NCBI RefSeq assembly: GCF_947503045.1
Contig: NZ_CANNCF010000002.1
Coordinates: 62,001-126,000, forward strand
DNA length: 64,000 nucleotides
DNA from: an uncultured Tateyamaria sp.
Lineage (GTDB): Bacteria > Pseudomonadota > Alphaproteobacteria > Rhodobacterales > Rhodobacteraceae
Reading direction: 5' to 3'
Shown here: one piece after another, positions 8,241 through 54,166 of the stretch
How positions within the stretch are numbered: the stretch's first letter is position 1
Layout: each line of letters opens with the position of its first letter
The notes under the pieces: generated by a model
Database searches by the model: none
What the model was told of the DNA's origin: nothing
The model's input: only the letters and a program-made list of their open reading frames with translations
Translations under genes and position numbers: made by a program

Positions 8241-9305
8241 TCATGCCGCGTGACGCAAGATCGCGGCCTCTGAACTGCTAAGGTTGCGACGCGCATAGGT
8301 GCCATAGGTGTGTGGATCGAACTCGAGGTCCGGCAAGCGGGTCAGCAAACGGTCGCGATCATTCTCGCCCAAGGTCGACAGTGCCGTGTTGGCGGGATGA
8401 AAGCTCTCTGTTTCGACGCCATTTGCTCGCAAGACCTCGTGGCGCGGCAACAGCAAGTGGACGTACGTCACCTCTGGCACCGTGAGATCAACCGAGATGG
8501 TCAGGCCGTTGATCAGGTCCTTGGCTGCGACCAGCACCTCGTCGGTGTTGAACAGATCACGCGCAACGGGCCCCTCGATCAGCATCCGGTGTTCGGGCGA
8601 GACCAGCAGTTCCTGATCCGGGCGCTCGATCCCCAACGCGCCCGTGGAAATCCGCACCGGGCGCAGGCGCGGCATGGCGAACAGACGTGCGCCAGTCATG
8701 CGACGCGCACCGATCCACTGCACCTCTTGATCGCCATTGTCCTTGGTCGAGACGCGATCGCCCTCGCGCAACTCTTCGATCAGGCGGGGGCCATCCGGCG
8801 TGTCGATCCATGTGCCCGGCGTAAAACAGATCACGCCACCCGCACCCGCCCCCATCCCGTCGCCGGGCGAGGTGTTCAGCGTATGGTGCACAACCCAAAG
8901 GTCCGTGTCGCGGGGCGGGATGTCATCGACAAACATCAACAGCGGCGGTTTGCCCGGTCCCACATCGATCAGCGTCACGGTGTAACTTTTGCCGCCATCG
9001 GTGACGACAAAACTGTTGTCGCTCAAGATCGGTGCCGACTCCGGCGCAGGTGGGGTCAACGGAGCCGTGTCCAGTGCCGCACCGACAAGGCGATGCACCA
9101 TGCGCGCCGCGCGTCTGCGCAGCGCTTCACTTCCGTCCGCCTTGTCCAGACGCAACACATCATGGGGTCCATCCACGCGCACGACGTCTCCGCGCCATGC
9201 CCATGCCGCCCCCACTGCCAATGCTGGCAGCGGCGCGGCCTCAAGACCATCTACTTCTGTTTGCGACCAGGAGATGACAAACGTGCCACGAAAGCCCGTC
9301 TTCAT
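8241..9305 (-). CDS. Hint (hedgehog/intein) domain protein
   Basis: A 354-residue protein with a Hint_2-type domain. The domain starts at GVICFTPGTWIDTPDG, with the candidate nucleophile cysteine at about residue 160. It continues through LIEELREGDRVST, the VQWIGARRM strand, VSPEHRML and the closing HEVLRANGVETESFHP segment. These domains can cut and rearrange the peptide bond before the cysteine, and the unusually glycine-rich stretch GDGMGAGAGG just before it would be the cut site. The N-terminal 155 residues resemble no family I recognise. No signal peptide is visible. Roseobacters often carry several such genes, usually in large exported proteins. An AGGG element precedes the ATG at 9305. 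Confidence 0.75.
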   Translation of the reverse strand: MKTGFRGTFVISWSQTEVDGLEAAPLPALAVGAAWAWRGDVVRVDGPHDVLRLDKADGSEALRRRAARMVHRLVGAALDTAPLTPPAPESAPILSDNSFVVTDGGKSYTVTLIDVGPGKPPLLMFVDDIPPRDTDLWVVHHTLNTSPGDGMGAGAGGVICFTPGTWIDTPDGPRLIEELREGDRVSTKDNGDQEVQWIGARRMTGARLFAMPRLRPVRISTGALGIERPDQELLVSPEHRMLIEGPVARDLFNTDEVLVAAKDLINGLTISVDLTVPEVTYVHLLLPRHEVLRANGVETESFHPANTALSTLGENDRDRLLTRLPDLEFDPHTYGTYARRNLSSSEAAILRHAA

Positions 9306-9471
9306 TGCCCTATGTGCCTGCCTTGTCTTTTTTTATTGTCTTGACGCTATCAAAGCGTGCGGTTTGAGAGAAGTCAAAATTTGTGTCAGATTCCAGCGGC
9401 TTGCGACGGGTTATTCACGCACTTTCTGGGCAGGTGTGGCATTTGTGTAATATCTTGCACCCGAAACCCGC

Positions 9472-10389
9472 CTAGAATGGCACACGCAGGCGTATTGATC
9501 CAACCAGCTGCCCTTCGGTCTGGCCTTCGAATTCCTCGCCCAGATAGGTCAGGCCGTAAAACGCGGTGATGCCGGTTTCGCTGCGCCAGGTCAGACCTGC
9601 GCGCAGACGCTCGCGGGTGTCGCGCAGTGTCACGCTGCCGCCTTCCGGCAGGAATTCACTGTCGCTGACCGCCGCGACATCCGCGCCCAGAACAAAGCTG
9701 TACCCGCTCCACTCGGCCTCGACCGCGCGATATCGGTGGCCGGTCACGGCGTCCCGCACCAGCAATTCGCCCCGCCCCAGCTGGCCGAACGTCAGATCGA
9801 ACCCGACCCGCCCCAGCGTCTCGTTGCCCAAGCGCCCTTCGACAAAGGGGCGCAGTACGGTGCTGTCACTCAGGGTAAAGTTCCGTCCAATCTCGACCAC
9901 CGCAGTGGGGGTGATCGCATTGCCGATCTGTGCGGCGCGCACCGCTTCGGACGGGCGTACGACGTTCAGGAGGTCGTGAAAGGCATCCTGAAAATCATCC
10001 AGCCCGGTCTGCGGGCCGACAAATACCAGATCACCGCCAACGGCGATTTCAACCTGCCCCCGCTGGACATGGCTGTGCAGCCCAATCGACAGCGCCCCAG
10101 CATAAGCCCGATCACTGGCCGAGACATTGCGGATGTCGTCCGGTGCCAGGATTTCCGCACCCAGCCGCAATTCGAGCAACTGACCGAACCCCGCAGGTGC
10201 GGTGCCCGTCCACGCCGGGCCCCAGATGCGCGAGGACTGGATGCTGCCTGTGCGCCAACGGTCTTCGCCATCGCCGATAAAGTCATTGGTGATCAGCCGA
10301 CCATAGCCCAGGCGCGTCCGGTCCTGCGCCTCTGCCAACGAGGAAAAGCAAACACATGCGACAAGCGCCGCCGCAATCAATCGAAACAT
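9472..10389 (-). CDS. Lipid A deacylase LpxR family outer membrane protein
   Basis: A 305-residue protein with a signal peptide (MFRLIAAALVACVCFSSLAEAQ) and the LpxR/DUF2219 start of the mature chain, GRLITNDFIGDGEDRWRTGS, which contains the conserved Asn-Asp pair. A histidine/glutamate region (IGLHSHV...VEIAVGG) fits the remaining active-site positions. The chain ends in phenylalanine (RLRVPF), as outer membrane beta barrels do. LpxR removes the 3'-acyloxyacyl chain from lipid A in the outer membrane. The ATG at 10389 is chosen because it opens the signal peptide; an upstream in-frame ATG adds 19 residues without one. It stands alone, divergent from the flavoprotein gene. Confidence 0.8.
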   Translation of the reverse strand: MFRLIAAALVACVCFSSLAEAQDRTRLGYGRLITNDFIGDGEDRWRTGSIQSSRIWGPAWTGTAPAGFGQLLELRLGAEILAPDDIRNVSASDRAYAGALSIGLHSHVQRGQVEIAVGGDLVFVGPQTGLDDFQDAFHDLLNVVRPSEAVRAAQIGNAITPTAVVEIGRNFTLSDSTVLRPFVEGRLGNETLGRVGFDLTFGQLGRGELLVRDAVTGHRYRAVEAEWSGYSFVLGADVAAVSDSEFLPEGGSVTLRDTRERLRAGLTWRSETGITAFYGLTYLGEEFEGQTEGQLVGSIRLRVPF

Positions 10390-10667
10390 CAGGCCATCCT
10401 GAACAAAGGTGCCCCCCCGAGCCTTGATCTGGATAGAGGCCATCACGCAGGTTGCCTAGTGCGCAAAGGGCACAGTGGGGCAAGTTTACACGTCAAGCGC
10501 GCCGTGCCTGCCGTCGACAGAGTCCCTTGGGCGTCGGTTTCTCATCAAACGACACATCGTGGCCTCGGCCTTTACCGCGCCCCCTAGGGCGGCAGGACCA
10601 AGTTGCCAGAGTTGACTCGTCCCCGCTGCGGGGCAAAGATTTGATCTTATCCTTGCGCGAGACGCCG

Positions 10668-12089
10668 ATGGCTGAGCATTCAAACCCCAGGTCCCATATC
10701 ATCGTCGGTGATGGGATAACGGCCCTCGCATTCCTTGAGAATTGCCGGGGACAAGACCTCCGCGAGATTACCTTGATTGGCCAGTCAGCGTCCGAATTCG
10801 GGCGCGGGGTCGCCTATGCCAAGGGGGAGGTCGATACGCCGTGGCGATTTGCCTACCTGCTGAATTCGCCCGCGGACGATATTGACCCGCGCTTTGCGCA
10901 ATGGCTTGGGGATCGCTGGCCGCGCCTGCGCGACACCATGACCGGCCGCAGCCCGAATTGGCTGGCCGCCGCTGCCCCCCTGATCGAGGCCGGTGACCTT
11001 TATGGCGTTAATGCGCCGCGCGAATTCTATGGCGATTTCATGCAGGAACAAGCGGACGCCCTTATTGCGCAGCTTGAAGCGGATGGCACCCGCGTGATCC
11101 GCGTCGAAGACGACGCCGTCTCGATCCGCGTCGCACCGAATGAGGTGACCGTGCGCAGCGCAAGTGGCAAGACCCTGTCCGCGCAGTCCGTGGATGTCGC
11201 GCCCGGCGGGCCCTCAACCATGCGGATTGACGGGGACGATGGCGCGCACAGCGTCCCGACCGTCTTTGGGAACGAACATCGCATCGCCGAGCATATCAAA
11301 CGCGGGGCCGAGATCTTTTGTATCGGCGGCAACGCCGCGATGCTGGATGTGCTGCGCCTGTGTCAAAGCCTGCGCGCCGATCACGAAATCCGGTTTGTCG
11401 CCTGCGCGCCTGATGGCGAGGTTCCGGCCGCCTTGGTCCCGCGCCTGCCGCGCAAACTCACGGTTCCGAATCTGACCAAAGGGCACGAAACGGCACAGAC
11501 CTTCCTTGCCGAAATCGAGCGCGAGATTTCATCGGCAAAAGCGGCTTGCGACGACATGCGCGAAATTCGGGCGGGGTTCAGAGCGCATTTTCTGGACACC
11601 CCTCTGCATCACTACGTGTCGGACCCGACCGAGGCGCTCAAGATTGCGGGCAGGTTGCGTTTCTGGTTGCGCGGTGGAACACGCGACACGATCCTCGATA
11701 TGCACCGCCTCCTGGATGCGGGACAGGTCAGGATCGTCAAGGGTCTGGTCAAATCGGTGGAGTCTGAGGCAGACGCTGCGGTGGTCACCGTCGTCGATGA
11801 GGACGGGCGCGAAGCGCGCATACCCACAGGCTTTGTCATCAACTGTGCCGGGGCCGGTCCAAATTCGCGCTTTGATACCCTGACCGAGGATATGCTGTCG
11901 CAAGGCCTGATCTCTCGTTGCGAGACGAGCCTTGGGCTGAAGGTCGCGGCGGGCTGCAAAACACGCACGCCCGCCATTCGTTATTTGTCCCCCGCAGTGT
12001 CCCAGATCGGGGAAGAGGTGGTCGCGATGCCGCTTTACGATGCGCACATGCTGCGAACCTACGTGGGGCGCTCTAGCCTGGAACGGTGA
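10668..12089 (+). CDS. FAD/NAD(P)-binding protein
   Basis: A 473-residue protein of the FAD-NAD(P)-binding type (PF13454-like). The first dinucleotide fold is IIVGDGITALAFLENC, close to the N-terminus, with a Gly-x-Gly loop. A second nucleotide fold appears around IFCIGGNAAMLDVLRLC, and a late motif GFVINCAGAGPNSRFD binds the flavin end. Members are poorly characterised oxidoreductases; the substrate is unknown. The ATG at 10668 is chosen because it immediately precedes the first fold. The longer reading from 10452 has no support. The last 17 bases overlap the convergent gene on the other strand. Confidence 0.75.
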   Translation: MAEHSNPRSHIIVGDGITALAFLENCRGQDLREITLIGQSASEFGRGVAYAKGEVDTPWRFAYLLNSPADDIDPRFAQWLGDRWPRLRDTMTGRSPNWLAAAAPLIEAGDLYGVNAPREFYGDFMQEQADALIAQLEADGTRVIRVEDDAVSIRVAPNEVTVRSASGKTLSAQSVDVAPGGPSTMRIDGDDGAHSVPTVFGNEHRIAEHIKRGAEIFCIGGNAAMLDVLRLCQSLRADHEIRFVACAPDGEVPAALVPRLPRKLTVPNLTKGHETAQTFLAEIEREISSAKAACDDMREIRAGFRAHFLDTPLHHYVSDPTEALKIAGRLRFWLRGGTRDTILDMHRLLDAGQVRIVKGLVKSVESEADAAVVTVVDEDGREARIPTGFVINCAGAGPNSRFDTLTEDMLSQGLISRCETSLGLKVAAGCKTRTPAIRYLSPAVSQIGEEVVAMPLYDAHMLRTYVGRSSLER

Positions 12090-12525
12090 TATGAAGCTGG
12101 CCTTGCACCAACCCGTCGCGTGCGATGATGGGACGGTGGTCCTGCCCGCGCAATACGACATCGATCACATGCGTTCCGGGCTCTGACAGCTCGATCTCGA
12201 CAATTGGTGTGTAGGCCGAGGCCACCTTTTCCCCGTTCACATGAACATGGGCGTGCCCGACGGGAATGGCCTCCGCATCTGCGACGCAAAGGTCGGTGAA
12301 CATGAAATCAGAGGCCTGCAGCTTGATCAGATACCGACCACCCCCAAGCGCGCTGGCCTGCACATCAACGCGGGGCGGGGTCTGCGTCTCGGGCAGGATC
12401 AGAAAGACCGCGCGGGGCGGCCTTCCCTTGGCGTTTACGATGGGCGCTGCGATCACGAGTGTCACCAAAAGTGCAGCAATGAGGCAGGGGCAGACGCTCA
12501 GTCGGGAGAAGATGGATGTCAGCAT
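12073..12525 (-). CDS. Small exported protein with a GHxHxxxxGxK domain
   Basis: A 150-residue protein with an N-terminal hydrophobic export signal (IAALLVTLVIAAPIVNA) and one domain. The domain holds DFMFTDLCVAD, PVGHAHVHVNGEKVASAY, EPGTHVIDVVLRGQDHRP and a terminal LHITV. The domain is plainly related to the C-terminal part of the protein at 60174-60932, which has GTGHGHIYLGGMK, SGQHVLRVSL and NDHR in the same order. The repeated histidines suggest metal binding, but that is inference and I do not recognise the family. Its ATG overlaps the stop of the upstream membrane protein (TGATG), so they are coupled. Its 3' end overlaps the convergent flavoprotein gene by 17 bases. Confidence 0.7.
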   Translation of the reverse strand: MLTSIFSRLSVCPCLIAALLVTLVIAAPIVNAKGRPPRAVFLILPETQTPPRVDVQASALGGGRYLIKLQASDFMFTDLCVADAEAIPVGHAHVHVNGEKVASAYTPIVEIELSEPGTHVIDVVLRGQDHRPIIARDGLVQGQLHITVPG

Positions 12526-13580
12526 CAGACCGCCCCCACTCTGCTGAACCGCGCGGGTCTGTGTGCAACGGGCACGTTGCGCCCGGCCAGCAGGATGACA
12601 AACAGCGCACCGTAAAGGTTGGCGTGGAACAGCGGCGTTTCACCCAGAACGATCGCAAGGAACGTCACCGCCCCAAGGATTGCCAGCGCCACAGGCCGCA
12701 CGAGCCGCCCGGTGACCAGCAATGCACCGCAGAGCACTTCGACCCCGGTCATCACCAATGCGATGATGGGCATCGGCAGACCAAATGTGGGCATGTTCCC
12801 GTGTTCGAGGATCGCGATCAAAAGCGTGGGCTGCATCAGCTTGTATGCAAGGCCCAGATACACGAACCCGGCACCAATCAGGATATGCGACATCCGCCAC
12901 AACACCTGCCGGTGGGGTGCCACAAGCGCCTCAACAGCATCGAGGTTCCAGATGTGATCGCAGGAAAAGCGACCGCCGCCCAATGCGATGAGGATGAAGC
13001 CGGGGGCGGCAAAATGCGGGGTGTAGTTCCAGAATCCGGGACCGAAAATGGCCACCCCGGCAAGCGACAGGCCGATCACGGCGACACCGCAGATGCGCGT
13101 TGCAAGCCCGGCGATCAAGAGCATCGCAATCGCGATCTGCACAATGATCAGCGCCTGTGCACCTGCAACCGTGGTCAGCTGCATGTCCGGCACAAGGAAT
13201 GTGGGCGTGGTCCAGATTTCAGTGCCGTGCCGTGGCAAACCACCGAAGGCGGCCAGCAGCATCATGACAGCCAGACCAAAGCGCAGCGCCAGTGGGCCAA
13301 TGTCGCCGTAGCGTTTCCAGATCGGTGTGATCACGCGGTACTCAACCGCGGCAATCACCGGCTCAAGCCGCAGGGCCACAAGTGTCAGCGCAAATCCGAC
13401 GGCTGCGGCAACACCAAGCCAAAGCTGGCTGCGGAACAAGTCCGGGATCGGCGCGCGAGACAGGTCCTCGATTTCGGCGGGTGTCAGCAGCCACGCTTCG
13501 TGGGCAAAGAGGGGGGTGGAAGACGATATAAGGATGGGCAGCGCGGTCAATAACCGCGCCAGACTGTAACTCTGTTTCAT
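12525..13580 (-). CDS. DoxX-like polytopic membrane protein
   Basis: A 351-residue protein with a signal-like start (YSLARLLTALPILISSSTPLFAHEAWLL) and about eight hydrophobic segments, among them LWLGVAAAVGFALTLVAL, LIIVQIAIAMLLIAGLAT, ILIGAGFVYLGLAYK and LVMTGVEVLCGALLVTG. The C-terminal part has the GxxFxxxGxxKL-type pattern and length of DoxX-like quinone-linked membrane proteins. The exported N-terminus ending AHEAWLL suggests a periplasmic histidine. Function is unknown. A clean AGGAGA lies before the ATG at 13580. It heads a two-gene operon with the small exported protein (1-base TGATG overlap), so the two probably act together at the membrane. Confidence 0.7.
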   Translation of the reverse strand: MKQSYSLARLLTALPILISSSTPLFAHEAWLLTPAEIEDLSRAPIPDLFRSQLWLGVAAAVGFALTLVALRLEPVIAAVEYRVITPIWKRYGDIGPLALRFGLAVMMLLAAFGGLPRHGTEIWTTPTFLVPDMQLTTVAGAQALIIVQIAIAMLLIAGLATRICGVAVIGLSLAGVAIFGPGFWNYTPHFAAPGFILIALGGGRFSCDHIWNLDAVEALVAPHRQVLWRMSHILIGAGFVYLGLAYKLMQPTLLIAILEHGNMPTFGLPMPIIALVMTGVEVLCGALLVTGRLVRPVALAILGAVTFLAIVLGETPLFHANLYGALFVILLAGRNVPVAHRPARFSRVGAV

Positions 13581-14117
13581 TTGAATCTCCTGCGAGAAAT
13601 CTAAAATTGATGTTTAAAAATTTGGGCGTCGGAGCCTGGAAATGCGGCCCCTCGGGTCTTGAAATGGGTCGTTCAAATTAGGGAACGCGGGGAAGATCGC
13701 GTTGTCTTGCCTTGGTGTCTTCAATTTAGGTGGCGCCGACACGGGCACCAAGTAAGGAAGTCCCTACCTGCGGTAGTAGCAGGCGGAATGACGCCACCTC
13801 GGGCGCGCCACGGGTTGAACGTGCCGGGCATGCGCCATGCTCAGCAGGTGCGAGCGAAGCTGATGACCGCAGCAAAAATGGACGGGCGATGAGGTCGGAA
13901 CAGCGGATCCATTTCGGGCGTCAATAAGATCAACAGGGATGACCTAAGCGCGAGTGGAACTGAAGTTGGAAGATCTGGGCAAACATTTGGTTTTGCGAGA
14001 AAACATCTCGTAATGAGGTTCACAACCGGTGGAGCGATCGGCCTTCAAATCAGAGGCCGTTGCGCGGCCTGAAATCAGAGCCGGATCACCCGCTCCACAC
14101 TCCCACTTCGCCCCACG
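13581..14117. other. 537-base intergenic region, no gene seen
   Basis: No coding frame with convincing protein features was found. It must hold the promoter for the DoxX-like operon. Near its right end is a hairpin at 14054-14070 (AGGCCG / CGGCCT with a 5-nt loop) flanked by the direct repeat AAATCAGAG at 14047-14055 and 14072-14080. The hairpin lies about 50 bases after the nrdJ stop codon and may be its terminator. Confidence 0.5.
14054..14070 (-). terminator. Possible terminator after nrdJ
   Basis: A 6-bp GC-rich stem with a 5-nt loop, followed on the minus strand by CTGATTTG, a weak T-rich tail. It lies about 50 bases beyond the nrdJ stop. Confidence 0.35.
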
Positions 14118-16622
14118 TCACCCGCACTTGGAAAAGCCGCAAGAGGCGCAGGTCATGCACCCTTCGATCATCCGCAACTCGTAAGAGCCGCAGCTGGAAC
14201 ACGCCTTGCCGCGCGGCGCACCCAGTTCGGCGACCTCTGCGCGCGGGTCGGTTTTCAAACCCATCCCCTCGCCTGCGATGAACCCGGTGGCGATCATGTG
14301 CTGTTCGATCACCCCCCCGATGGCGGCAAGGATGGAGGGAATGTACTTGCCCCCCATCCACGCACCACCGCGCGGATCGAACACGGCCTTGAGCTCTTCG
14401 ACGACAAAGCTCACATCCCCGCCCCGCCGGAACACGGCCGAGATCATGCGGGTCAGCGCAACGGTCCAGGCGAAATGCTCCATATTCTTGGAGTTGATGA
14501 AAACCTCGAACGGGCGGCGATGCCCACCCAGCACGATGTCGTTGATGGTGATGTAAAGCGCGTGCTCGCTGTCCGGCCACTTGACTTTGTAGGTGTTGCC
14601 TTCGAGTTCGCTGGGCCGGTCGAGGGGCTCGGACATGTAGATGACGTCGCCGTGGGGAGTTTGGGGTTCCGCGTCACTCATTGACAGCACCTCTGGCCTC
14701 TCATTTTCACCAAACAGCAGCCAGCCAGCAGGAACATCCAGATGTGTTGCGAATTGTTCGGCGAAGTCCTTAGAAAGTTTACGCGAACCATTCAGAAAGC
14801 GGCTCACATACGTGCGTTCGATGCCCATTGCATCGGCTAGTTGTGATGGTTTCGCGTATCCCTTTTGCTCTGAAGCCCAAGCCAATCGTTCAAAAGCGGT
14901 GTCCAACTCAGGCAGCGTCGGCTTCTCCTCCGCCACACTCAGCACAGACCCGGTCACGGCATTGGGCCGATACGTCGTGCAGCCTTTGCACCCGGTATCC
15001 CACGCCTGCATGTAGACATCCTTGAACGCGTCAAAGCTGATGTCTTCGGGGCAATTGATCGTCTTGGAGATGCTCGAGTCCACCCACTTTTGAGCTGCGG
15101 CCTGCATCTTGACGTGATCGCTGGGGGCTAGCGTTTGGGCGTTCACGAAGTAGTCGGGCAACTCGGTGTCACCCTTCAATTCGCGCCACATCTGCACGGC
15201 GTAGTCCACGACTTCTTCTTCGGTGCGCGAGCCGTCTTTTTGCAGCACCTTGCGGGTGTAGGCATAGGCAAAGACCGGCTCGATCCCCGAACTGACATTG
15301 CCTGCATACAGGCTGATGGTGCCCGTGGGTGCGATGGAAGTCAGCAGCGCATTTCGGATGCCGTGTTCGGCCACGGCGGTGCGCACGTCATCGTCCATCG
15401 CCTGCATGGTGCCAGAGGCCAGGTAGCCATCCGCGTCGAACAGTGGAAATGCGCCCTTCTCCTTTGCCAATTGCACGGAGCCCAGGTACGCGGCGCGGGC
15501 GATTGCTTTCAACCAGCGTTCGGTCTGACGCGCCGCCTCGTCAGATCCATAGCGCAGGCCGACCATCAAAAGCGCGTCCGCCAGCCCCGTGACCCCAAGG
15601 CCGATGCGGCGTTTGTTAGCGGCCTCACGGGCCTGCGCCTCAAGCGGGAAGCGCGAGGCATCGACCACGTTGTCCATCATCCGCACAGCGGTGCCGACCA
15701 GTTCGACCAGTTGATCCTCGTCCAGCGCTGCAGCGTCGCCGAACGGGTCACTGACCAGCCGCGCGAGATTGATCGAGCCGAGCAGGCACGCCCCATAGGG
15801 CGGCAAAGGCTGTTCGCCGCAGGGGTTCGTGGCCGCGATGGTCTCGCAATAATTCAGGTTGTTGGCCGTGTTGATCCGGTCGATGAAGATCACGCCCGGC
15901 TCGGCATAATCATAGGTCGCCCGCATGATACCGTTCCACAGATCACGCGCCTGCACGGTCTTGTAGACGCGGCCCTCGAACTGCAAATCCCATGGGCCGT
16001 CGGCCTTCACCGCCTCCATGAACGCATCCGTCACAAGAACCGAGACATTGAACATGCGTAGGCGGGCAGCATCGGATTTGGCGGTGATGAAATCCTCGAT
16101 ATCCGGGTGGTCACAACGCATCGTCGCCATCATCGCGCCGCGCCGCGACCCTGCGGACATGATCGTGCGGCACATCGCGTCCCACACATCCATGAAGGAC
16201 AGGGGACCGGAGGCATCCGCCGCCACCCCTTTGACGTCCGCGCCCTTGGGCCGGATGGTCGAGAAATCATAGCCGATCCCGCCGCCCTGTTGCATGGTCA
16301 GGGCCGCCTCTTTCAGCATCTCGAAAATGCCGCCCATGCTGTCGGGGATCGTGCCCATGACAAAACAGTTGAACAGAGTGACCGAACGGGCTGTTCCGGC
16401 ACCAGCGGTGATGCGCCCTGCGGGCAGAAATTTGAAATCTTCAAGGGCGGCGTAAAACGTGTCTTCCCAAGCGCTTGGGTCATCCTCGACCTTGGCCAGA
16501 TCACGCGCGATCCGGCGCCAACTGTCTTCGACCGTGACGTCGATGGGCGTGCCATCGGCCTCCTTGAAGCGATACTTCATGTCCCAGATCTGTTCGGCAA
16601 TCGGCGCAGCAAAGCGTGTCAT
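14118..16622 (-). CDS. nrdJ: B12-dependent (class II) ribonucleotide reductase with internal HTH insert
   Basis: An 834-residue adenosylcobalamin-dependent ribonucleotide reductase making deoxyribonucleotides without oxygen dependence. Family motifs are LFNCFVMGTIPDS, QQGGGIGYDFS, NPCGEQPLPPYGACLLGS, SIAPTGTISLYAGN and a C-terminal zinc/redox tail CSSCGSYELR...CMTCASCGFSKCG. Between NAVTGSVLSVAEEKP and GDVIYMSEPLDRP, in the linker before the C-terminal domain (about residues 572-640), there is an in-frame Cro/C1-type HTH: KPSQLADAMGIERTYVSRFL, then NGSRKLSKDFAEQF and VPAGWLLFGENE. This is not part of the usual enzyme. Its DNA is about 49% G+C (89 of 180 bases at 14701-14880) against 65% in a sample of the flanking gene (15541-15600). 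The ATG at 16622 (MTRFAAPIAEQIWD) fits the family. Confidence 0.93.
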   Translation of the reverse strand: MTRFAAPIAEQIWDMKYRFKEADGTPIDVTVEDSWRRIARDLAKVEDDPSAWEDTFYAALEDFKFLPAGRITAGAGTARSVTLFNCFVMGTIPDSMGGIFEMLKEAALTMQQGGGIGYDFSTIRPKGADVKGVAADASGPLSFMDVWDAMCRTIMSAGSRRGAMMATMRCDHPDIEDFITAKSDAARLRMFNVSVLVTDAFMEAVKADGPWDLQFEGRVYKTVQARDLWNGIMRATYDYAEPGVIFIDRINTANNLNYCETIAATNPCGEQPLPPYGACLLGSINLARLVSDPFGDAAALDEDQLVELVGTAVRMMDNVVDASRFPLEAQAREAANKRRIGLGVTGLADALLMVGLRYGSDEAARQTERWLKAIARAAYLGSVQLAKEKGAFPLFDADGYLASGTMQAMDDDVRTAVAEHGIRNALLTSIAPTGTISLYAGNVSSGIEPVFAYAYTRKVLQKDGSRTEEEVVDYAVQMWRELKGDTELPDYFVNAQTLAPSDHVKMQAAAQKWVDSSISKTINCPEDISFDAFKDVYMQAWDTGCKGCTTYRPNAVTGSVLSVAEEKPTLPELDTAFERLAWASEQKGYAKPSQLADAMGIERTYVSRFLNGSRKLSKDFAEQFATHLDVPAGWLLFGENERPEVLSMSDAEPQTPHGDVIYMSEPLDRPSELEGNTYKVKWPDSEHALYITINDIVLGGHRRPFEVFINSKNMEHFAWTVALTRMISAVFRRGGDVSFVVEELKAVFDPRGGAWMGGKYIPSILAAIGGVIEQHMIATGFIAGEGMGLKTDPRAEVAELGAPRGKACSSCGSYELRMIEGCMTCASCGFSKCG

Positions 16623-16695
16623 CAAGGCATCCCCGTGGTGGCGATCGAATCTTTCGGCATCTTGAAAGACCAACAAGGTATCACACCCCCACAGA

Positions 16696-16732
16696 TTGCA
16701 GAAGTAAAGATAAGTGCTACAATATAGAGTGT
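16696..16732 (+). promoter_or_regulatory. Promoter of the DUF1489 gene overlapping a NrdR-box-like site
   Basis: TTGCAG at 16696-16701 and an extended -10 TGC-TACAAT at 16715-16723 with a 16-base spacer fit a sigma-70 promoter for the rightward gene. Bases 16717-16732 (CTACAATATAGAGTGT) match 13 of 16 positions of the NrdR box consensus acaCwAtATaTwgtgt and lie about 95 bases upstream of the divergent nrdJ start. Only one box was found; NrdR usually uses two. Confidence 0.4.
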
Positions 16733-16749
16733 GGCTTGGGGACGACTCT

Positions 16750-17181
16750 GTGGATAACTACGTCAATCTGATCAAACTGTCGGTGGGCACGGAAACCGTC
16801 GACGACCTTGCCGATTGGCAAGCCACCAAACGTGCGCAGACCCCGGACGGCCTGCCGCGACACGTCACCCGCATGTGGCCCAAGCGCGAGGCAGAGATCC
16901 TGAACGGCGGGTCGATCTATTGGGTAATCAAGGGCGTTCTGACCTGTCGGCAACGTATCCTGCGGCTGGACGAGTACTTTGGGTCCGATGGAATTCGGCG
17001 CTGTTCCATCGTATCCGACCCCGAGTTGGTGCGGGTGCAAAGCGCGCTGAAACGTCCGTTTCAGGGCTGGCGCTATCTCAAACCACAAGACGCCCCACCC
17101 GACCTGCCCAAGGGCCGCGAAAGCGAAGAGCCCCTGCCGGTTGAGCTGAACCGGGCACTTGCCGAAATCGGCGTGCTCTGA
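16750..17181 (+). CDS. DUF1489 family protein
   Basis: A 143-residue conserved alphaproteobacterial protein. It has the usual N-terminus (VNLIKLSVGTETVDDLADWQ), the PRHVTRMWPKR segment, a GGSIYWVIKG strand and CRQRILRLDE, all typical of DUF1489. The length is normal and no signal or membrane segment is visible; the function is unknown. The GTG at 16750 is chosen because homologues begin at the VNLIKL region, a GGGGA element lies 8 bases upstream of it, and the likely promoter -10 would otherwise overlap the more upstream ATG at 16714. It is divergent from nrdJ, a shared control region. Confidence 0.8.
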   Translation: MDNYVNLIKLSVGTETVDDLADWQATKRAQTPDGLPRHVTRMWPKREAEILNGGSIYWVIKGVLTCRQRILRLDEYFGSDGIRRCSIVSDPELVRVQSALKRPFQGWRYLKPQDAPPDLPKGRESEEPLPVELNRALAEIGVL

Positions 17182-17567
17182 GCGGGCGTTTATCTGCTCA
17201 CGCGCGTCAAACGCTTTGCCGATTCTATCCGACCTTGAGGCCTCTCCCTTACGTCAATTGCATGCCCTCAGAGATATCCACAGCTGAAATTCATTCAATT
17301 TCAATCGGATAGACCATTCACCCCAGAATGTTCGGTTTTTGGCTTTGACCGGCAAAGAACCGCCCGTCTATATTTGGATTCCAACACTAGATGTTGCGAA
17401 CCTTGCCTGGTTAACCATCAAAATATTGAGCGTTTGAGACCATATTCAGAAAGCGCATTTCACGTACCGGCACAGCACGCGACAGGACAAAAACACATTC
17501 AGACCCATCACATGCGGGTCCACACTCACGGACCCGTTCGGGCAGACAGACAGAGGGATAAGCAACA
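17182..17567. other. 386-base region before the LysM gene
   Basis: No gene is seen. Its right part forms an AT-rich leader to the LysM gene with a hairpin at 17515-17536 (CGGGTCC / GGACCCG, 8-nt loop) and the ribosome site GAGGGA. The long leader suggests post-transcriptional control, but no riboswitch class is recognised. Confidence 0.4.
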
Positions 17568-48606: not shown

Positions 48607-48674
48607 TTGTGCCGCACCCCGATAACAGGGTGCCGAACGTTCAGAATTTATTCTTTAGAGCGGAGGAAATTTTT

Positions 48675-49097
48675 ATGGCTGAATCCAAAAAAGACAGAAC
48701 CCTCGAAATGCGTGTGGCGGAACTTGAGGACAAGATGTCCGCGATGAACGTCACCGAAGAAGAGATGGCGGCGTTCAACAAAGTGGCCTCTCTAATGGGG
48801 GGACCAGCCGCGGCTGCAACTGCGACCGCCGCACCTGCTGCCGGTGGAAACCCGGCCGGACTGACCCCGGTGCCGGGGAACTGCATTGTCGCAAACTGCA
48901 TCATCAACCAGTGTACCATTCGCCAGTGTACGGTCATCAGTGCCTGCACGATCATCTCCCAGTGCACGATCCGACCTTGCACCGTTGTCAATCCGTGCAC
49001 GATCGTCAGCCAGTGCATCAACCAATGCATTAACGAATGCGGCGGCGGCCTGCCGGGTCCAATCGCAGGCGGCGGCTTCGGTTCGCTGGGTAGCTGA
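48675..49097 (+). CDS. RiPP precursor peptide with Cys-repeat core (TOMM type)
   Basis: A 140-residue peptide. Residues 1-43 form a charged helical leader (KKDRTLEMRVAELEDKMS, then VTEEEMAAFNKVASLMGG). Residues 44-68 are an Ala/Pro/Gly/Thr linker. Residues 69-122 are the core with cysteines at 70, 75, 80, 85, 91, 97, 102, 108, 114, 118 and 122. Six of them (80, 85, 91, 97, 102, 108) are followed by Thr then Ile or Val. The tail is Gly-rich (ECGGGLPGPIAGGGFGSLGS). Cys-Thr pairs are substrates for YcaO enzymes, and the YcaO, E1-like, SagB and radical SAM genes follow at once. The ATG at 48675 has CGGAGGAAAT upstream, the strongest ribosome site nearby, as expected for an abundant precursor. No match to a named peptide is recognised. 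Confidence 0.85.
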   Translation: MAESKKDRTLEMRVAELEDKMSAMNVTEEEMAAFNKVASLMGGPAAAATATAAPAAGGNPAGLTPVPGNCIVANCIINQCTIRQCTVISACTIISQCTIRPCTVVNPCTIVSQCINQCINECGGGLPGPIAGGGFGSLGS

Positions 49098-49156
49098 TCC
49101 TTGGTGCCTGAACCCACCTAGGGGTCTTAGGGCACGTCTGTCGAAAGGACGGCTGC

Positions 49157-51052
49157 ATGCGTATTGTTTTTGCCGTGATGCCTTTCGCCGATGCGGGAAG
49201 GCCGTGTATCGGCGTCAGTCTGTTATCATCCGCGGCGCAAGAGGCGGGGCACGAGGCGCGGGTGGATTATTGCAATCTCGCGCTTGCCTCCACTTTGGGC
49301 CTGCCGCTTTATCAACGGATCGCCAGCGCCTGGCCGCCTGAAATGCTGGTGGGCGAATGGTTCTTTGCGGACGACGTTTTCGGCGGTGACATCCCCGACT
49401 CCCAAGACTATCTGAACGACGTCTTCCTGCCCAAACTCGGCGCGGACCCCGAGACTGTGTCCGATCTGCTTGAGGCGCGCACCCATCGCGATGCGTTCCT
49501 TGAGGCCTGCGTGGACAGGATCATGGCCGATGATCCTGATGTCGTGGGCTTCACATCCACCTTCCACCAGACCTGTCCCAGCCTTGCCGTCGCCAAGCGT
49601 CTCAAGGCCCTGCCCGACCCGCCGCTCGTGATCTTCGGCGGGGCGAACTGCGAGGGCGAGATGGGGCTGGCACTGATCCGGGCCATGCCGTGGATCGACT
49701 ATATTTGTTCCGGTGAAAGTGACGTCAGCCTGCCACGCCTGCTGACCGCCATCGAGACTGGCGATGACAGCCCCGTGCCCGGGGTGCTGTCGCGCAGTCG
49801 GATGGACCGCGCCGTTCGCTCGGCCCCCGTGATGGACATGAACGCGCTGCCCCTGCCCGATTTTGCAGGGTATTTCGAAGGCATCAAAACATCCGAACTG
49901 AACCACCCGGAATTCGAACCACATCTGGTGATCGAGACGTCGCGCGGCTGCTGGTGGGGCGCAAAACACCATTGCACCTTTTGCGGCCTGAACGGCGACA
50001 CCATGGCCTTTCGTTCCAAAACGGCCAAGCGCGCCTACGACGAGATCACGACGCTCGCGCGCACCTATGACGTGCCGCGGTTCGGCTGCGTCGACAACAT
50101 TCTGGACATGACCTACGTGCGCGAATTGTTCCCTCTGCTCGCCGCGTCCGACATCACGTTCGACATTTTCTACGAGGTAAAGGCCAACCTGCGTTACGCC
50201 CAGCTTTCGGAAATGAAAGCGGGTGGGTTGACCCAGATTCAGCCGGGGATCGAGAGCTTTTCCGACAGTGTCCTGAAGCTGATGGAAAAAGGGTGCACCG
50301 GCTTTCAGAACATCCAGCTTTTGCGTTGGTGCGAAGAGATTGGCATCGACGCGGCGTGGAACCTTCTTGCCGGTTTTCCGGGCGAGGACCAGAAGGAATA
50401 CGCGCGCATGGCGACCCTTTTGCCCAGCCTGTCACATCTGAAACCACCCTATTCCTGCGCGCGGCTGAGGCTGGACCGGTTCAGCCCGTTCCACAGCCGC
50501 GCCGATGATTTTGGCTTTGCCCGGATGCGCCCTGCGCAGGCCTATTTTTACGTCTTCCCGCTGGGCCGAAAGGACCTGTCCGAACTCGCCTATTATTTTG
50601 ACTTCGACTACGAGGATGGGCGCAATCCCGACCTTTACGTCCGACCGGTTCAATCCGCGGTGACGGCGTGGTGGGCAGAATTCAATGGCGAAGACCGCGC
50701 GAGGCTGGACGCGCATTGCCTGTCCGACGGCAGCATCAAGATCGAGGACACCCGCGCCTGCACAACAAAGCCTGAACGCAGCCTATCCGGCCTCGCCGCA
50801 CAGCTACTTGTGGCCTGCGACATCGCGGCAAAACCTGCGGCCCTTGCCAGCACCCTCGGCGAGACAGAAGCGGCTATTCAAGACGCGCTCGATACGCTCG
50901 TCGCCGACAAACTGATGGCCGAGGACGATGGCCGCTACCTCTCCTTGCCTGTTTTCCGCAAGCGCCCGCCCGACCTGACTGACGACGAAAGGACTGCCCA
51001 TGCCGAGCTTTCAGCGACCAAGGATACTGGGGCACTACTCGATCTGGTCTGA
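49157..51052 (+). CDS. Cobalamin-binding radical SAM RiPP maturation enzyme
   Basis: A 631-residue enzyme. The N-terminal third resembles a B12-binding domain (PDVVGFTSTFHQTCPSLAVAKRL, with FGGANCEGEMG) and lacks the usual DxHxxG, so B12 may bind base-off differently. The radical SAM cluster motif is RGCWWGAKHHCTFCGLNG, cysteines at 265, 273 and 276 (C-x7-C-x2-C). This is the distinctive pattern of RiPP maturation radical SAM protein 1 (TIGR03975), found with varied peptide precursors. Its C-terminal 100 residues look like a winged-helix or RRE-like domain. Likely reaction: C-methylation or another radical change on the precursor core. It starts 59 bases after the precursor and overlaps the next gene by 53 bases. 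Confidence 0.88.
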   Translation: MRIVFAVMPFADAGRPCIGVSLLSSAAQEAGHEARVDYCNLALASTLGLPLYQRIASAWPPEMLVGEWFFADDVFGGDIPDSQDYLNDVFLPKLGADPETVSDLLEARTHRDAFLEACVDRIMADDPDVVGFTSTFHQTCPSLAVAKRLKALPDPPLVIFGGANCEGEMGLALIRAMPWIDYICSGESDVSLPRLLTAIETGDDSPVPGVLSRSRMDRAVRSAPVMDMNALPLPDFAGYFEGIKTSELNHPEFEPHLVIETSRGCWWGAKHHCTFCGLNGDTMAFRSKTAKRAYDEITTLARTYDVPRFGCVDNILDMTYVRELFPLLAASDITFDIFYEVKANLRYAQLSEMKAGGLTQIQPGIESFSDSVLKLMEKGCTGFQNIQLLRWCEEIGIDAAWNLLAGFPGEDQKEYARMATLLPSLSHLKPPYSCARLRLDRFSPFHSRADDFGFARMRPAQAYFYVFPLGRKDLSELAYYFDFDYEDGRNPDLYVRPVQSAVTAWWAEFNGEDRARLDAHCLSDGSIKIEDTRACTTKPERSLSGLAAQLLVACDIAAKPAALASTLGETEAAIQDALDTLVADKLMAEDDGRYLSLPVFRKRPPDLTDDERTAHAELSATKDTGALLDLV

Positions 51053-52115
51053 GCCCCCGGACGCCTCGGGCGACGAGGTACTGCGCATCGCCTCGCCACA
51101 GCGTAAGATCAAGCTGAAGGGGCATTCCTTTCGCGAGTTCCAGCGACATGTGGTCCCTCTGCTTGACGGAAACCACCCGATCATCGAAATCCGTGAACGT
51201 ACCTCCGATATTTTTGATGCCGACGATCTCGACGCGGCGCTAGCGACCCTCGGGCAGCAGGGCGTGCTGGTCGAGGGTGGAGACGTCAATGACGACCCCC
51301 GCGCGCCCCAAACCAACCTGTTCCATGACCTGCCAGGCGGTGCCGAGCTGTTGCAAAAGCGGCTCGAACAATCGACCGTCGCCATATTGGGACTTGGCGG
51401 TGCGGGCGCGACGACGGCCATGGGGCTGGCCTCTGCCGGCATTGGTCGGATGATCGCGATTGACCCGGGTGAGGTCACTCAATCGGACATCTACCTCAGC
51501 GCCGCGTACAGCCTGACAGATATCGGTCGCCCTCGAGCCGAGGCACTCGCCGACGCCCTCGCGGCCAAGGCACCGCAACTGGCCGTCGCACCGCTGACCA
51601 AACCGCTGGAAACCGAGGACGATATCCGCGCCGCAATTGACGGGGCCACATATGTGGTGTCCTGCCTTGATCCGGGACTGGTGAACCTCAGCTACAAGCT
51701 CAACAAGGTGTGCCTCGCCGACAAGCGCAGCTGGATATCGACGCAACAGGAAGGCGTCGAGACAATCGTGGGCCCCGGAGTGGTCCCGGACCACACCGCC
51801 TGCTTCATGTGCTACCGGATGCGCGCGATTGCCACGGCGGGCAATCCCGAGGCGGCCTTTGCCCACGAAAAGTATATGGACAAGGCGCAACAAGATGTGG
51901 GCGCTCAGCGCCAGTCGACCGTCTTTTCCGCAGGTCTTGCCGCGCATTACCTCGGGCTGGAGGTCCTTGCCACGCTTGCGGGATATACCGAACCTGCCCT
52001 CACTGGTCGGGTTCTCACAATCAATCTGGCGACACTGGAAACCCAGCGGCACATGGTTCTCAAAAAACCGTGGTGTCCGGCCTGTCACGGCACAGGTGGC
52101 AGTCATGAATCTTGA
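51000..52115 (+). CDS. E1-like TOMM partner protein (leader-binding)
   Basis: A 371-residue protein. Residues 1-95 look like a RiPP leader-recognition winged helix (LKGHSFREFQRHVVPLLDGNHPIIEI). The remainder is a ThiF/E1-like fold with nucleotide loop AILGLGGAGATTAMGLASAGIG near residue 129. Zinc cysteine pairs are at 268/271 (CFMC) and 359/362 (CPAC). In TOMM systems this protein binds the leader peptide and presents the core to the YcaO enzyme; its own ATP site is often unused. The ATG at 51000 lies inside the end of the radical SAM gene in another frame (53-base overlap) but is needed to include the leader-binding domain. It overlaps the YcaO start by 11 bases. Confidence 0.88.
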   Translation: MPSFQRPRILGHYSIWSEPPDASGDEVLRIASPQRKIKLKGHSFREFQRHVVPLLDGNHPIIEIRERTSDIFDADDLDAALATLGQQGVLVEGGDVNDDPRAPQTNLFHDLPGGAELLQKRLEQSTVAILGLGGAGATTAMGLASAGIGRMIAIDPGEVTQSDIYLSAAYSLTDIGRPRAEALADALAAKAPQLAVAPLTKPLETEDDIRAAIDGATYVVSCLDPGLVNLSYKLNKVCLADKRSWISTQQEGVETIVGPGVVPDHTACFMCYRMRAIATAGNPEAAFAHEKYMDKAQQDVGAQRQSTVFSAGLAAHYLGLEVLATLAGYTEPALTGRVLTINLATLETQRHMVLKKPWCPACHGTGGSHES

Positions 52116-53409
52116 GCCATGGGACATTCTCGTCAGTCCGCATACCGGGCTGGTGACCAATCTCAGCCCGCAGCAACGCGGGCCAGAGGAACCCGCGCCG
52201 CCCTTTCTGTATACGGCGATGCTGGCACATTACGATTTCCGCAACGCCCACGCGGCGGACCGCATCAATGCCGGTAAGGGCCGAACGCGACGCGATGCCA
52301 AGCTGTCCGCTTTGGGCGAAGCGGTGGAGCGGTACTGCGCCTATCACTGGGATCATGATCGGGTCTTTGCCGCCCGGCTAAGCGATCTGTCGGGCCCCGT
52401 GATCACGCCTGATGAATTGGTGCTTTATGGCGAGGACCGGATGAATGCGCCCGGCTTTCCCTATAACCGTTGGGACCCTGATGCACCGATACATTGGGTG
52501 AGTGGCAAGCTGCTGCCTGATGGGCAACTGGTCACCCTGCCTGCAAGCATGGTTTACCTCACCCAACCGATCGCAGGTGCCGGGGATTTCTTTACACCCG
52601 CAACCTCCAACGGGCTGGCGGCGGGCGCGACCTTGGATGCCGCGATCCTCGGTGGGCTTAACGAGTTGATCGAACGCGACGCGCTGATCATCACCTGGGC
52701 AAACCGACTGCCCTGCACGCGGATCGACGTGCCCGAAGACGCAGGCGTGTCCGGTGACATCCTGCTGCGCTATCGGCTTATGAAATTGCAGGTGGAGCTG
52801 TTCCTGTTGCCCACCGACCAACCTCAAAGCGTTGTCCTTGCCATGGCCACGGATGAGAACCCGGCGCATCCGCACAAGGTGGTCGGCATGGGATGTCGGC
52901 TGGATCCATCAGCGGCTGTCGAACAGGCGCTGTTTGAACTGTGTCAGGCCCGCCCTTCGGAGATACAACGCTTCGCCGACCGGGATCAGACTCGTAGCTA
53001 CGCCCGATATGAGGACATCGAAACGCTGGAAGATCATCCCGCATTCCACGCCTTGCCCGAACATGCCCATGAAACCGGATTTCTCAGGGCGGGCGGCAAA
53101 ACCACCGCCCTGTTAGACATTCCGAGCGCGTCCACCGGTTCGGTCGAGGGTGATCTGGAGCGGACAATCGAGGGTCTGATCGCAGCCGGGTCGCGGGTCG
53201 CCGCCATCGATCTGACACTGCCCGATGTGGCGCAAGCGGGCTACCGCGTGGCCCGCACGCTCGCCACAGGGTTACAGCCAATACATTTCGGCTATCGCGA
53301 GGAACGCCTGGGCGGGCGCAGGCTGTTTGATTTGCCGGTGACATTGGGGCTGCGGGAGCAACCAGCGACGCCCGAAGAACTCAACCTCTGTCCACATCCG
53401 ATGGCGTGA
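52105..53409 (+). CDS. YcaO cyclodehydratase
   Basis: A 434-residue YcaO-domain enzyme that uses ATP to cyclise Cys, Ser or Thr side chains onto the preceding peptide carbonyl, giving thiazolines or oxazolines. ATP/Mg motifs: KLSALGEAVERYCAY (E72, E75), a second ELIERDALIITW (about residues 187-197) and FELCQARPSEIQR. The C-terminus ends in NLCPHPMA, a short Pro-rich tail close to the PxPxP end important for YcaO function. The ATG at 52105 overlaps the E1-like gene's stop; the longer reading from 51829 lies within that gene. It is followed at 4 bases by the SagB gene. Confidence 0.92.
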   Translation: MNLEPWDILVSPHTGLVTNLSPQQRGPEEPAPPFLYTAMLAHYDFRNAHAADRINAGKGRTRRDAKLSALGEAVERYCAYHWDHDRVFAARLSDLSGPVITPDELVLYGEDRMNAPGFPYNRWDPDAPIHWVSGKLLPDGQLVTLPASMVYLTQPIAGAGDFFTPATSNGLAAGATLDAAILGGLNELIERDALIITWANRLPCTRIDVPEDAGVSGDILLRYRLMKLQVELFLLPTDQPQSVVLAMATDENPAHPHKVVGMGCRLDPSAAVEQALFELCQARPSEIQRFADRDQTRSYARYEDIETLEDHPAFHALPEHAHETGFLRAGGKTTALLDIPSASTGSVEGDLERTIEGLIAAGSRVAAIDLTLPDVAQAGYRVARTLATGLQPIHFGYREERLGGRRLFDLPVTLGLREQPATPEELNLCPHPMA

Positions 53410-53413
53410 TGCG

Positions 53414-54166
53414 ATGATGATTCCCGCCAACGACCAGTCCAGCCTGTCCCTGCTCTACCATCTCAATTCCGAGCCGTGGCGAAATGATCAGGCCTATACG
53501 GCCGAACCCTATGTGCAGGAATTTCCTCTGCCCGACCCTTCTGGTCCACCGATCAATCTGCCCAAACCCAAGACAACCGCATTGTCACAGCTGATCGCCG
53601 GGCGACGCTCGGTGCGTGCGTTTTCTGGTGAGCCTTTGTCCTTGGATGCATTGTCCAGCGTTTTGCATGCTGCCTACGGGTTGGTTTCGGCTGACCCGCA
53701 AGACACCAACCTGTTGCCCTTGCGGCGGTCAGTGCCATCCGCAGGCGGGTCTTACGCGCTGGACGTCTATGTCTTTACCCAGTCGGTCAGCGGCATGGAG
53801 GACGGGCTTTATTTCTATGATGGACTGCGCGGTCGGATGCTGTTGCGAGAAACGCGCGATGGGTTCGAGGGGCTGGACCAGGTATTCTACACGCACGGCT
53901 TCGTCGCCAAGGCCAATGCCTTGGTTTGCCTCGCCGCGCGGTTCGAGCATTGCCAGAGCAAATACGGCCCGCGCGGCTATCGCTACATGCTGCTCGAAGC
54001 GGGTCACGCCGCGCAAAACATATGCCTGACCAGCGTCGATCTCGCGCTCGGCTCACTGGTCATGGGCGGCTATGTCGACAGCGCGCTGCTGCGTGAACTG
54101 AAGCTCGATCCACTCAAGGCCGGGGTCCTCTACTCGGTGGCGATTGGCCATCCTCAAGACCGATAG
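53414..54166 (+). CDS. SagB-type FMN dehydrogenase
   Basis: A 250-residue nitroreductase-fold oxidase of the SagB type, which oxidises azolines to azoles. FMN-binding patterns: IAGRRSVRAFSGEPLSL (about residues 62-78), VPSAGGSYALDVYVF and the catalytic-region GPRGYRYMLLEAGHAAQNICL. The late GYVDSALLRELKLDPLK...YSVAIGHP is typical. With YcaO and the E1-like protein it completes a TOMM synthetase. A second ATG one codon later is possible. It is the last gene of the cluster; a convergent gene begins 32 bases further. Confidence 0.9.
   Translation: MMIPANDQSSLSLLYHLNSEPWRNDQAYTAEPYVQEFPLPDPSGPPINLPKPKTTALSQLIAGRRSVRAFSGEPLSLDALSSVLHAAYGLVSADPQDTNLLPLRRSVPSAGGSYALDVYVFTQSVSGMEDGLYFYDGLRGRMLLRETRDGFEGLDQVFYTHGFVAKANALVCLAARFEHCQSKYGPRGYRYMLLEAGHAAQNICLTSVDLALGSLVMGGYVDSALLRELKLDPLKAGVLYSVAIGHPQDR

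Follow-up and report, generated by a model that had tools for sequence, protein, structure and literature searches.

Clusters for thiazole/oxazole-modified microcins (TOMMs) or linear azol(in)e-containing peptides (LAPs), together with those for the orphan mobilisins and faecalisins, pair an E1-like C protein, a YcaO D protein and a SagB B protein with a leader-core precursor rich in Cys and Thr. The sections of the 2015 atlas of Cox et al. covered here describe mobilisin clusters with B, C and D proteins only, and a faecalisin core with a Gly linker and a Cys repeat region (PMC4603692). Here we describe a five-gene cassette with these same parts in 64,000 nucleotides of DNA from an uncultured Tateyamaria sp. 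(assembly GCF_947503045.1, contig NZ_CANNCF010000002.1, positions 62,001-126,000 of the forward strand; hereafter the window). Compared with the systems above, the cassette adds a B12-radical S-adenosylmethionine (SAM) enzyme of the TIGR03975 family, a leader family of its own and a Gly-rich tail that sits after, rather than before, the Cys repeats. The terms radical SAM, Paracoccus, Rhodobacter and Solirubrobacter are absent from the main text of the atlas, as far as it was covered (PMC4603692).

Nostatin A, an azole proteusin, likewise comes from a cluster that combines azole-forming enzymes with a class B radical SAM C-methyltransferase. The covered parts of its description give it a nitrile-hydratase-like leader, a LanM-like enzyme, an epimerase and a Ser/Thr-rich core, and none of those genes is in the five-gene cassette (PMC11583998). 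Because nostatin A pairs azoles with a PoyB/C-like enzyme, the combination is not new in principle. The polytheonamide enzymes PoyB and PoyC are likewise B12-radical SAM proteins with a Cx7Cx2C motif; in the passages covered, PoyC has the same unusual spacing as the cassette enzyme (PMC5682303) and is reported to methylate Val and Ile at C-beta (PMC5682303, PMC11285071). Polytheonamide has a proteusin leader and undergoes epimerisation, unlike the cassette. We know of no azole machinery in the polytheonamide cluster. The bottromycin core is short and macrocyclic. Bottromycin clusters resemble the cassette in combining YcaO proteins with radical SAM C-methyltransferases and in the C-terminal follower sequence of the precursor (PMC11285071, PMC4603692, in part), and differ in that their YcaO proteins have no recognisable C protein (PMC4603692, in part). 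Finally, microcin C7 MccB and pantocin PaaA share with the cassette E1 a full-length fold including the N-terminal domain, whereas the adenylation-site residues of MccB are replaced.

In the open-access literature, searched with leader and core strings included and supplements outside its scope, we found nothing that describes the product, this family of leaders, the grammar of the repeats and their tail, or the five-gene set. A preliminary description of the locus, made from the sequence alone, had stated that it knew of no named product with this precursor, and to that extent the statement holds. The cassette is real, conserved and, as far as searched, unnamed; its enzymes are of ordinary kinds and the family is new. 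Orphan clusters of ribosomally synthesised and post-translationally modified peptides (RiPPs) are many, and the chemistry of this one is predictable. What raises it above the routine is a strict precursor rule, its unity across phyla and the ease with which it can be tested.

Gene content and conservation of the cassette

The cassette occupies 5.5 kb and consists of five open reading frames (ORFs) on the same strand, at 48675-54166 of the window:

48662..48666, + strand: Shine-Dalgarno-like GGAGG ahead of the precursor ATG, read from the sequence
48675..49097, + strand: precursor peptide gene, 140 amino acids (aa), aligned with 14 homologues encoded beside the same enzymes in other loci
49157..51052, + strand: B12-binding radical SAM RiPP C-methyltransferase by family, 631 aa (TIGR03975, 688 bits; predicted fold nearest OxsB, TokK, TsrM and CysS)
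51000..52115, + strand: E1-like TOMM C protein, 371 aa (TIGR03882, 69.5 bits)
52105..53409, + strand: YcaO cyclodehydratase (D protein), 434 aa (TIGR03604, 305 bits; LynD and TruD in the PDB)
53414..54166, + strand: SagB flavin mononucleotide (FMN) dehydrogenase (B protein), 250 aa (TIGR03605, 102 bits)

The preliminary description had placed five genes on this strand with overlaps of 53 and 11 bases and a gap of 4 bases; all the frames are present at those positions and the distances are exact. A further interval of 59 bases separates the precursor and radical SAM genes. The precursor start is best placed at ATG 48675 and not at the in-frame GTG 48609, since GGAGG precedes the former and its register matches the relatives. 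A/G-rich stretches also lie upstream of the 14 homologous precursor starts.

Using hmmscan against NCBIfam with curated cut-offs, all four models that had been proposed as a check gave scores above threshold: TIGR03975 for the radical SAM protein (688 bits, cut-off 282), TIGR03882 for the E1-like protein (69.5 bits, cut-off 36.9), TIGR03604 for the YcaO protein (304.6 bits, cut-off 219) and TIGR03605 for the SagB protein (102 bits, cut-off 78). In Pfam, searched with gathering scores, Radical_SAM (PF04055), ThiF, YcaO and Nitroreductase each exceeded theirs; the B12-binding domain PF02310 in the radical SAM protein reached 23.4 bits, below its score of 32.1. Solved relatives in the PDB include MccB, PaaA, LynD and TruD for the E1 protein, and LynD and TruD for the YcaO protein; the matches of SagB include McbC and CyaGox, the best being 3eo7, a putative nitroreductase. 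The TOMM parts originally recognised by motif were each borne out by profiles and by PDB matches or fold, and the interpretation first given to the cluster is supported. The cassette has the gene content expected of a TOMM/LAP cluster, with a SagD-family YcaO protein, an E1-like partner of the leader-binding kind, the optional SagB-type dehydrogenase and a nearby precursor with a leader and a core rich in Cys, Ser and Thr; its radical SAM protein has the TIGR03975 membership, domains and Cx7Cx2C motif expected of a class B (B12) radical SAM RiPP C-methyltransferase.

Genome contigs were scanned with an alignment of three radical SAM proteins. This confirmed 297 relatives, of which the best 80 were kept, giving 79 distinct loci. 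The same precursor family is found in 14 of these, and in 12 (L013-L019, L021-L024 and L027) the complete set of five is present in the window's gene order. The other two are cut by contig ends, L020 lacking SagB and L055 everything but the precursor and part of the radical SAM gene. The recurrence of order and precursor family in 12 complete loci shows that the gene set is not a chance assembly; loss of synteny in relatives, named at the outset as an outcome that would count against the cluster, is not seen in the homologous loci. The radical SAM proteins of the 14 precursor-bearing loci are 47-58 % identical to that of the window, and those of the remaining 65 are 44 % or less. No precursor match was found in these 65, several of which are short contigs on which partner genes may have been missed. 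Among them only L053 has matches to E1, YcaO and SagB together (31-33 %), arranged differently; in L028 and L079 the sole match is YcaO-like (29-30 %). The radical SAM and E1 genes overlap by 23-59 bases in 13 of 13 loci of the cassette family that hold both, with starts chosen by alignment to the window proteins; in L053 the two genes are 1.9 kb apart.

Phylogenetic trees gave a similar picture. In a 78-row radical SAM tree the 13 family rows form one side of a single branch with good, not strong, support (Shimodaira-Hasegawa-like approximate likelihood ratio 92). The four enzyme trees of 12 loci have 5-7 of 9 splits in common pairwise, compared with a mean of 0.3 and a maximum of 3 (one pair) for relabelled trees. 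They disagree in places, for example in the attachment of the window row in the SagB tree. L017, a near copy of L006, was excluded from trees and core counts, as was the cut L055 from trees; L020 is absent from the SagB alignment and the four-tree comparison, and L009 is the same contig as L018. The recurring order and the largely concordant trees show that, in Pseudomonadota, Acidobacteriota and Actinomycetota alike, the genes mostly move together.

The cluster had been described as that of a roseobacter. The window does group with Rhodobacterales in the family search and the radical SAM tree, but the hosts of the cassette include Acidobacteriota and Actinomycetota besides Paracoccus and other Rhodobacterales. 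Named strains with copies are Paracoccus denitrificans DSM 413, P. siganidrum M26 and Solirubrobacter phytolaccae KCTC 29190, and a tblastn search of plasmids placed the cassette on a 1.73 Mb plasmid record of P. denitrificans HAMBI_2443. It is rare in the samples searched. Within the family, 5 of 295 genomes have a radical SAM match at 1e-30 and two of the five, the window's own included, carry the cassette; within the genus it occurs in 1 of 20 genomes, the window's own. The class sample of 385 genomes yielded the window's own and a weak precursor match in one other alphaproteobacterium (G560; E 3.6e-4, core region only), which was judged to be chance and whose locus, L093, is unmatched by the leader profile described below. 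Precursor and radical SAM alignment searches found no relatives in viral contigs. An empty site in congeners was also sought and rejected, flank matches within the genus being short and scattered with no clean boundary.

The precursor family

The alignment of 15 precursors divides the window peptide as follows:

48675..48788, + strand: leader, residues 1-38, with conserved TLEMRVAELEDK..VTEEEM..F.KVA (alignment of 15)
48879..49034, + strand: cysteine-repeat core, residues 69-120, with ten Cys, each followed by Thr or Ile, spacing 4-6
49035..49097, + strand: ECG and Gly-rich C-terminal tail, residues 121-140, plus stop, conserved (alignment of 15)

Mean pairwise identity over ungapped columns (105 pairs) is 0.68 for the leader, 0.38 for the core and 0.74 for the tail, the last value being inflated by Gly. 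In the window core all ten Cys precede Thr or Ile and all nine spacings are 4-6, values that none of 2000 shuffles reached for either property. Over six Rhodobacterales cores, Cys precedes Thr, Ile or Val in 63 of 63 cases and the spacing is 4-6 in 57 of 57, again reached by 0 of 2000 shuffles; these cores are related and the counts are not independent, although the window core alone also beats all shuffles. Eight other cores are looser (32 of 52 Cys and 25 of 45 spacings fit, above all 2000 shuffles), and few Cys are kept in the Solirubrobacter and L023 cores. Ile and Val make up 19 % of the pooled cores. The strict grammar of Cys followed by Thr, Ile or Val would suit thiazole formation together with beta-methylation of the next residue.

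The leader appears to be specific to this family. At E up to 1, a leader profile matches only loci of the cassette family among 13,523 ORFs in 93 loci, some loci being present more than once. The window precursor matches no NCBIfam family at E 0.01, and in Pfam only cwf21, at 16.7 bits and under its 23.2. A proteusin leader of the NHLP type is not indicated, no NHLP family being found for the window precursor (E 0.01) or the 15 precursors (E 0.1) in NCBIfam, and the same searches found no Nif11 family and hence no Nif11-like leader.

L027 contains a 33-base tandem unit, which shows that the repeats can expand at the DNA level; the window has only a short 12-base array. In L022 (1015-1380) the core of the acidobacterial precursor alternates as CxCxCxC (CVCVCPCNCVCNCFC), a pattern not shared by the other cores. 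The repeat core of the window (48831-49031) gave weak left-handed beta-helix scores, with GlgC at E 0.015 and RmlA at 0.028. Across the precursors such GlgC and RmlA matches (E 0.009-0.04; GlgC in 3 of 15, best 0.009) are probably compositional. Matches to ACBP4_C and the MTR4 stalk (two of 15 precursors each, best E 0.0003 and 0.001) and to LsrB, F0F1 subunit C and VirB10 (one precursor each) were also judged compositional. Searching the PDB with the precursor profile gave one weak match across the core, to a procathepsin construct (E 0.022), judged to be chance.

Enzymes and proposed pathway

Within the enzymes the following features were located; RRE denotes the RiPP recognition element:

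49949..49984, + strand: [4Fe-4S] motif C265-x7-C273-x2-C276 of the radical SAM enzyme, invariant in 13 sequences
50705..50962, + strand: C-terminal winged-helix-like domain of the radical SAM enzyme, residues 517-602 (AlphaFold model)
51039..51275, + strand: N-terminal RRE-like domain of the E1 protein, residues 14-92, predicted to bind the leader (secondary structure; MccB and PaaA fold matches)
51801..52085, + strand: CxxC...CxxC stretch of the E1 protein (C268, C271, C359, C362), invariant in the alignment
53960..53965, + strand: Lys-Tyr pair of SagB (K183, Y184) in a KYGPRGYRY block, invariant in 12 sequences

In the fold search the predicted radical SAM structure ranks OxsB first, with TokK, TsrM and CysS also near; we take OxsB not to be a methylase of its main substrate and CysS to be a methyltransferase. 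The C-terminal domain is modelled with confidence (AlphaFold block confidence, pLDDT, of 92 or more over residues 501-600), and its three strands followed by three helices match the order seen in leader-binding RRE domains. Its sequence link to the N-domain of the E1 protein is weak. In the E1 family the N-L-T of the MccB N-L-T-R-Q block is D-x-Y, there is no adjacent Arg, and Arg stands for Lys; D163, Y165 and R179 are invariant in 13 sequences. These MccB residues presumably matter for adenylation, and their replacement is consistent with a non-adenylating role for the E1 protein, presenting the leader. The CxxC...CxxC pair is a probable zinc site. In the YcaO family the GEAxE, ExxERD and ExxQ residues and the P-H-P end are invariant, and in SagB K183-Y184 is presumably the catalytic pair.

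What this analysis shows directly is the set of genes and its conserved order, the enzyme families, the invariance of metal and active-site residues and the precursor grammar; from these we infer the reactions, their sites and the order in which they occur. The acidic helical leader would be held by the N-terminal RRE-like domain of the C protein and possibly also, separately, by the RRE-like C-terminal domain of the radical SAM enzyme. Using ATP, the YcaO protein would convert the core Cys to azolines by cyclodehydration, perhaps along with the Thr that follow them, and SagB would oxidise these azolines to azoles with FMN. The B12-radical SAM enzyme may C-methylate the beta-branched Ile, Val or Thr next to Cys. 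The predicted product is a long chain of azoles alternating with bulky beta-branched residues, with the Gly-rich tail at its end. We put the probability that the cassette is self-contained and of the TOMM/LAP kind, with leaders of a distinct family, making azoles through YcaO and SagB and C-methylating through the radical SAM enzyme, at about 0.73. Two points weigh against it and lowered the value slightly from 0.75: minimal TOMM clusters such as those of the mobilisins are already known, and MoeB ties with MccB in the fold list of the E1 protein. If correct, the cassette is a compact natural pathway in which one repetitive and variable core undergoes both azole formation and radical C-methylation, under sequence rules plain enough for the modified sites to be predicted. 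As copies exist in named strains, the order of azole formation and methylation, and the sharing of one leader by two enzymes, can be tested directly.

Where the product acts is less clear. The flanks of 15 contexts contain no widely conserved protease, exporter or immunity gene, and no flanking gene family is common to more than three of these contexts (E 1e-10 and 1e-8; the window and 14 loci, L017 left out). The picking of flank genes was heuristic, several flanks are short at contig ends, and L020 and L055 have no downstream flank. As no widely conserved protease or exporter adjoins the cassette, the leader is most likely trimmed by a housekeeping protease, TldD/E being a guess, or else the product is intracellular or cell-associated. 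The window's genome has two TldD/PmbA-type genes, and that their products trim the leader is likewise a guess. Across three phyla no exporter or protease is linked to the cassette at all widely, which raises the question of the peptide's role, perhaps inside cells. It is quite conceivable, if short of an even chance, that the modified peptide is not secreted at all and serves within or on the cell as a metal binder or as a redox or structural element, a proposal that the unshared flanks favour, together with a Gly-rich tail at least as conserved as the leader. Pointing the other way, unlinked exporters exist in most genomes, and an ATP-binding cassette (ABC) exporter gene adjoins the P. denitrificans copy while flank coverage is uneven. 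Minimal clusters are also known, those of the mobilisins being reported with B, C and D proteins only (PMC4603692, in part).

A different doubt concerns the radical SAM enzyme. The TOMM enzymes might make azoles as proposed while this protein does something other than C-beta methylation, such as C-methylation of the azole ring or of Gln, Arg or Pro, epimerisation or formation of a C-S bond. The gamma-isobutyl proline of nostatin A is ascribed, in the part of the report covered, to a PoyB/C-like enzyme, so related enzymes use other residues (PMC11583998). In L023, moreover, the enzyme is kept with a core poor in beta-branched residues. However, the closest curated model, TIGR03975, is named a C-methyltransferase, most of the near fold neighbours (TokK, TsrM and CysS) are methyltransferases even though OxsB comes first, and the Ile and Val content of the pooled cores is 19 %; another activity seems unlikely. 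Slightly less probable still is an extension of the proposed pathway, in which a mobile five-gene unit would make long rods that, in the window peptide, carry ten or eleven azoles, a beta-methylated, beta-branched residue coming after each of ten. Guidance by two separate leader-binding domains (of the E1 and radical SAM proteins) and a conserved C-terminal follower, and a product kept in or on the producer cell and not exported, would then mark a distinct RiPP subclass, for which we found no description in the papers searched.

That the cluster is decayed or silent in the window's genome seems improbable. The window radical SAM and YcaO proteins do deviate at some otherwise near-invariant positions in the family alignments, and the cassette is confined to one genome of the genus sample, but the five reading frames are intact with their invariant metal and active-site residues and the precursor keeps its full Cys grammar. 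Least probable of all is an E1 protein that adenylates the precursor as in microcin C7 rather than just presenting it, as the MccB N-L-T-R-Q block and Lys are not intact in any of the 13 aligned sequences and MccB is not known to have a YcaO partner gene.

Neighbouring genes and other clusters

At its copy of the cassette, the closely related Paracoccus sp. MKU1 has no counterpart of the ABC exporter gene found upstream in P. denitrificans; the next gene outward in P. denitrificans, past the exporter, ends in MKU1 438 bases upstream of the precursor. Generic ABC-ATPase similarity (29-34 %) connects the flanks of L006, L015 and L027. After the cassette in P. denitrificans (L006, 13106-15058) lies a gene for a BTAD-domain protein, possibly a local regulator, which is 92 % identical in Paracoccus sp. 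MKU1. An attenuating hairpin between the precursor and radical SAM genes was considered; seven intervals were folded, only that of L014 gave a z below -2, and the idea was dropped.

A PF02624 search found no other YcaO gene in the window's genome. The genome has two PF02514 chelatase genes, on contigs C1 and C9, with frames of 1224 and 1096 aa. At least one may be CobN for B12 synthesis, in a family that also covers the bacteriochlorophyll chelatase; the shorter (1096 aa) may be BchH of bacteriochlorophyll synthesis.

Other arrangements of these enzymes were met among the radical SAM relatives. L053, from a metagenome-assembled genome of Acidobacteriota, contains at 8917-17457 a different TOMM-like cluster with a TIGR03975-like radical SAM gene, E1, YcaO and SagB, two long ORFs (11009-11851 and 11972-12790) that are rich in Gly and carry PPC repeats, and an ORF for a subtilisin-like protease, recognised by eye. 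Two rhizobial plasmid loci with TIGR03975 genes, L007 and L008, have other gene content and are unmatched by the leader profile. In L007 (5532-15866) genes for a radical SAM epimerase and a TIGR03975 methyltransferase lie near nifA and nifB, and in L008 (3202-8929) radical SAM epimerase and TIGR03975 genes stand behind four annotated Nif11-like precursors.

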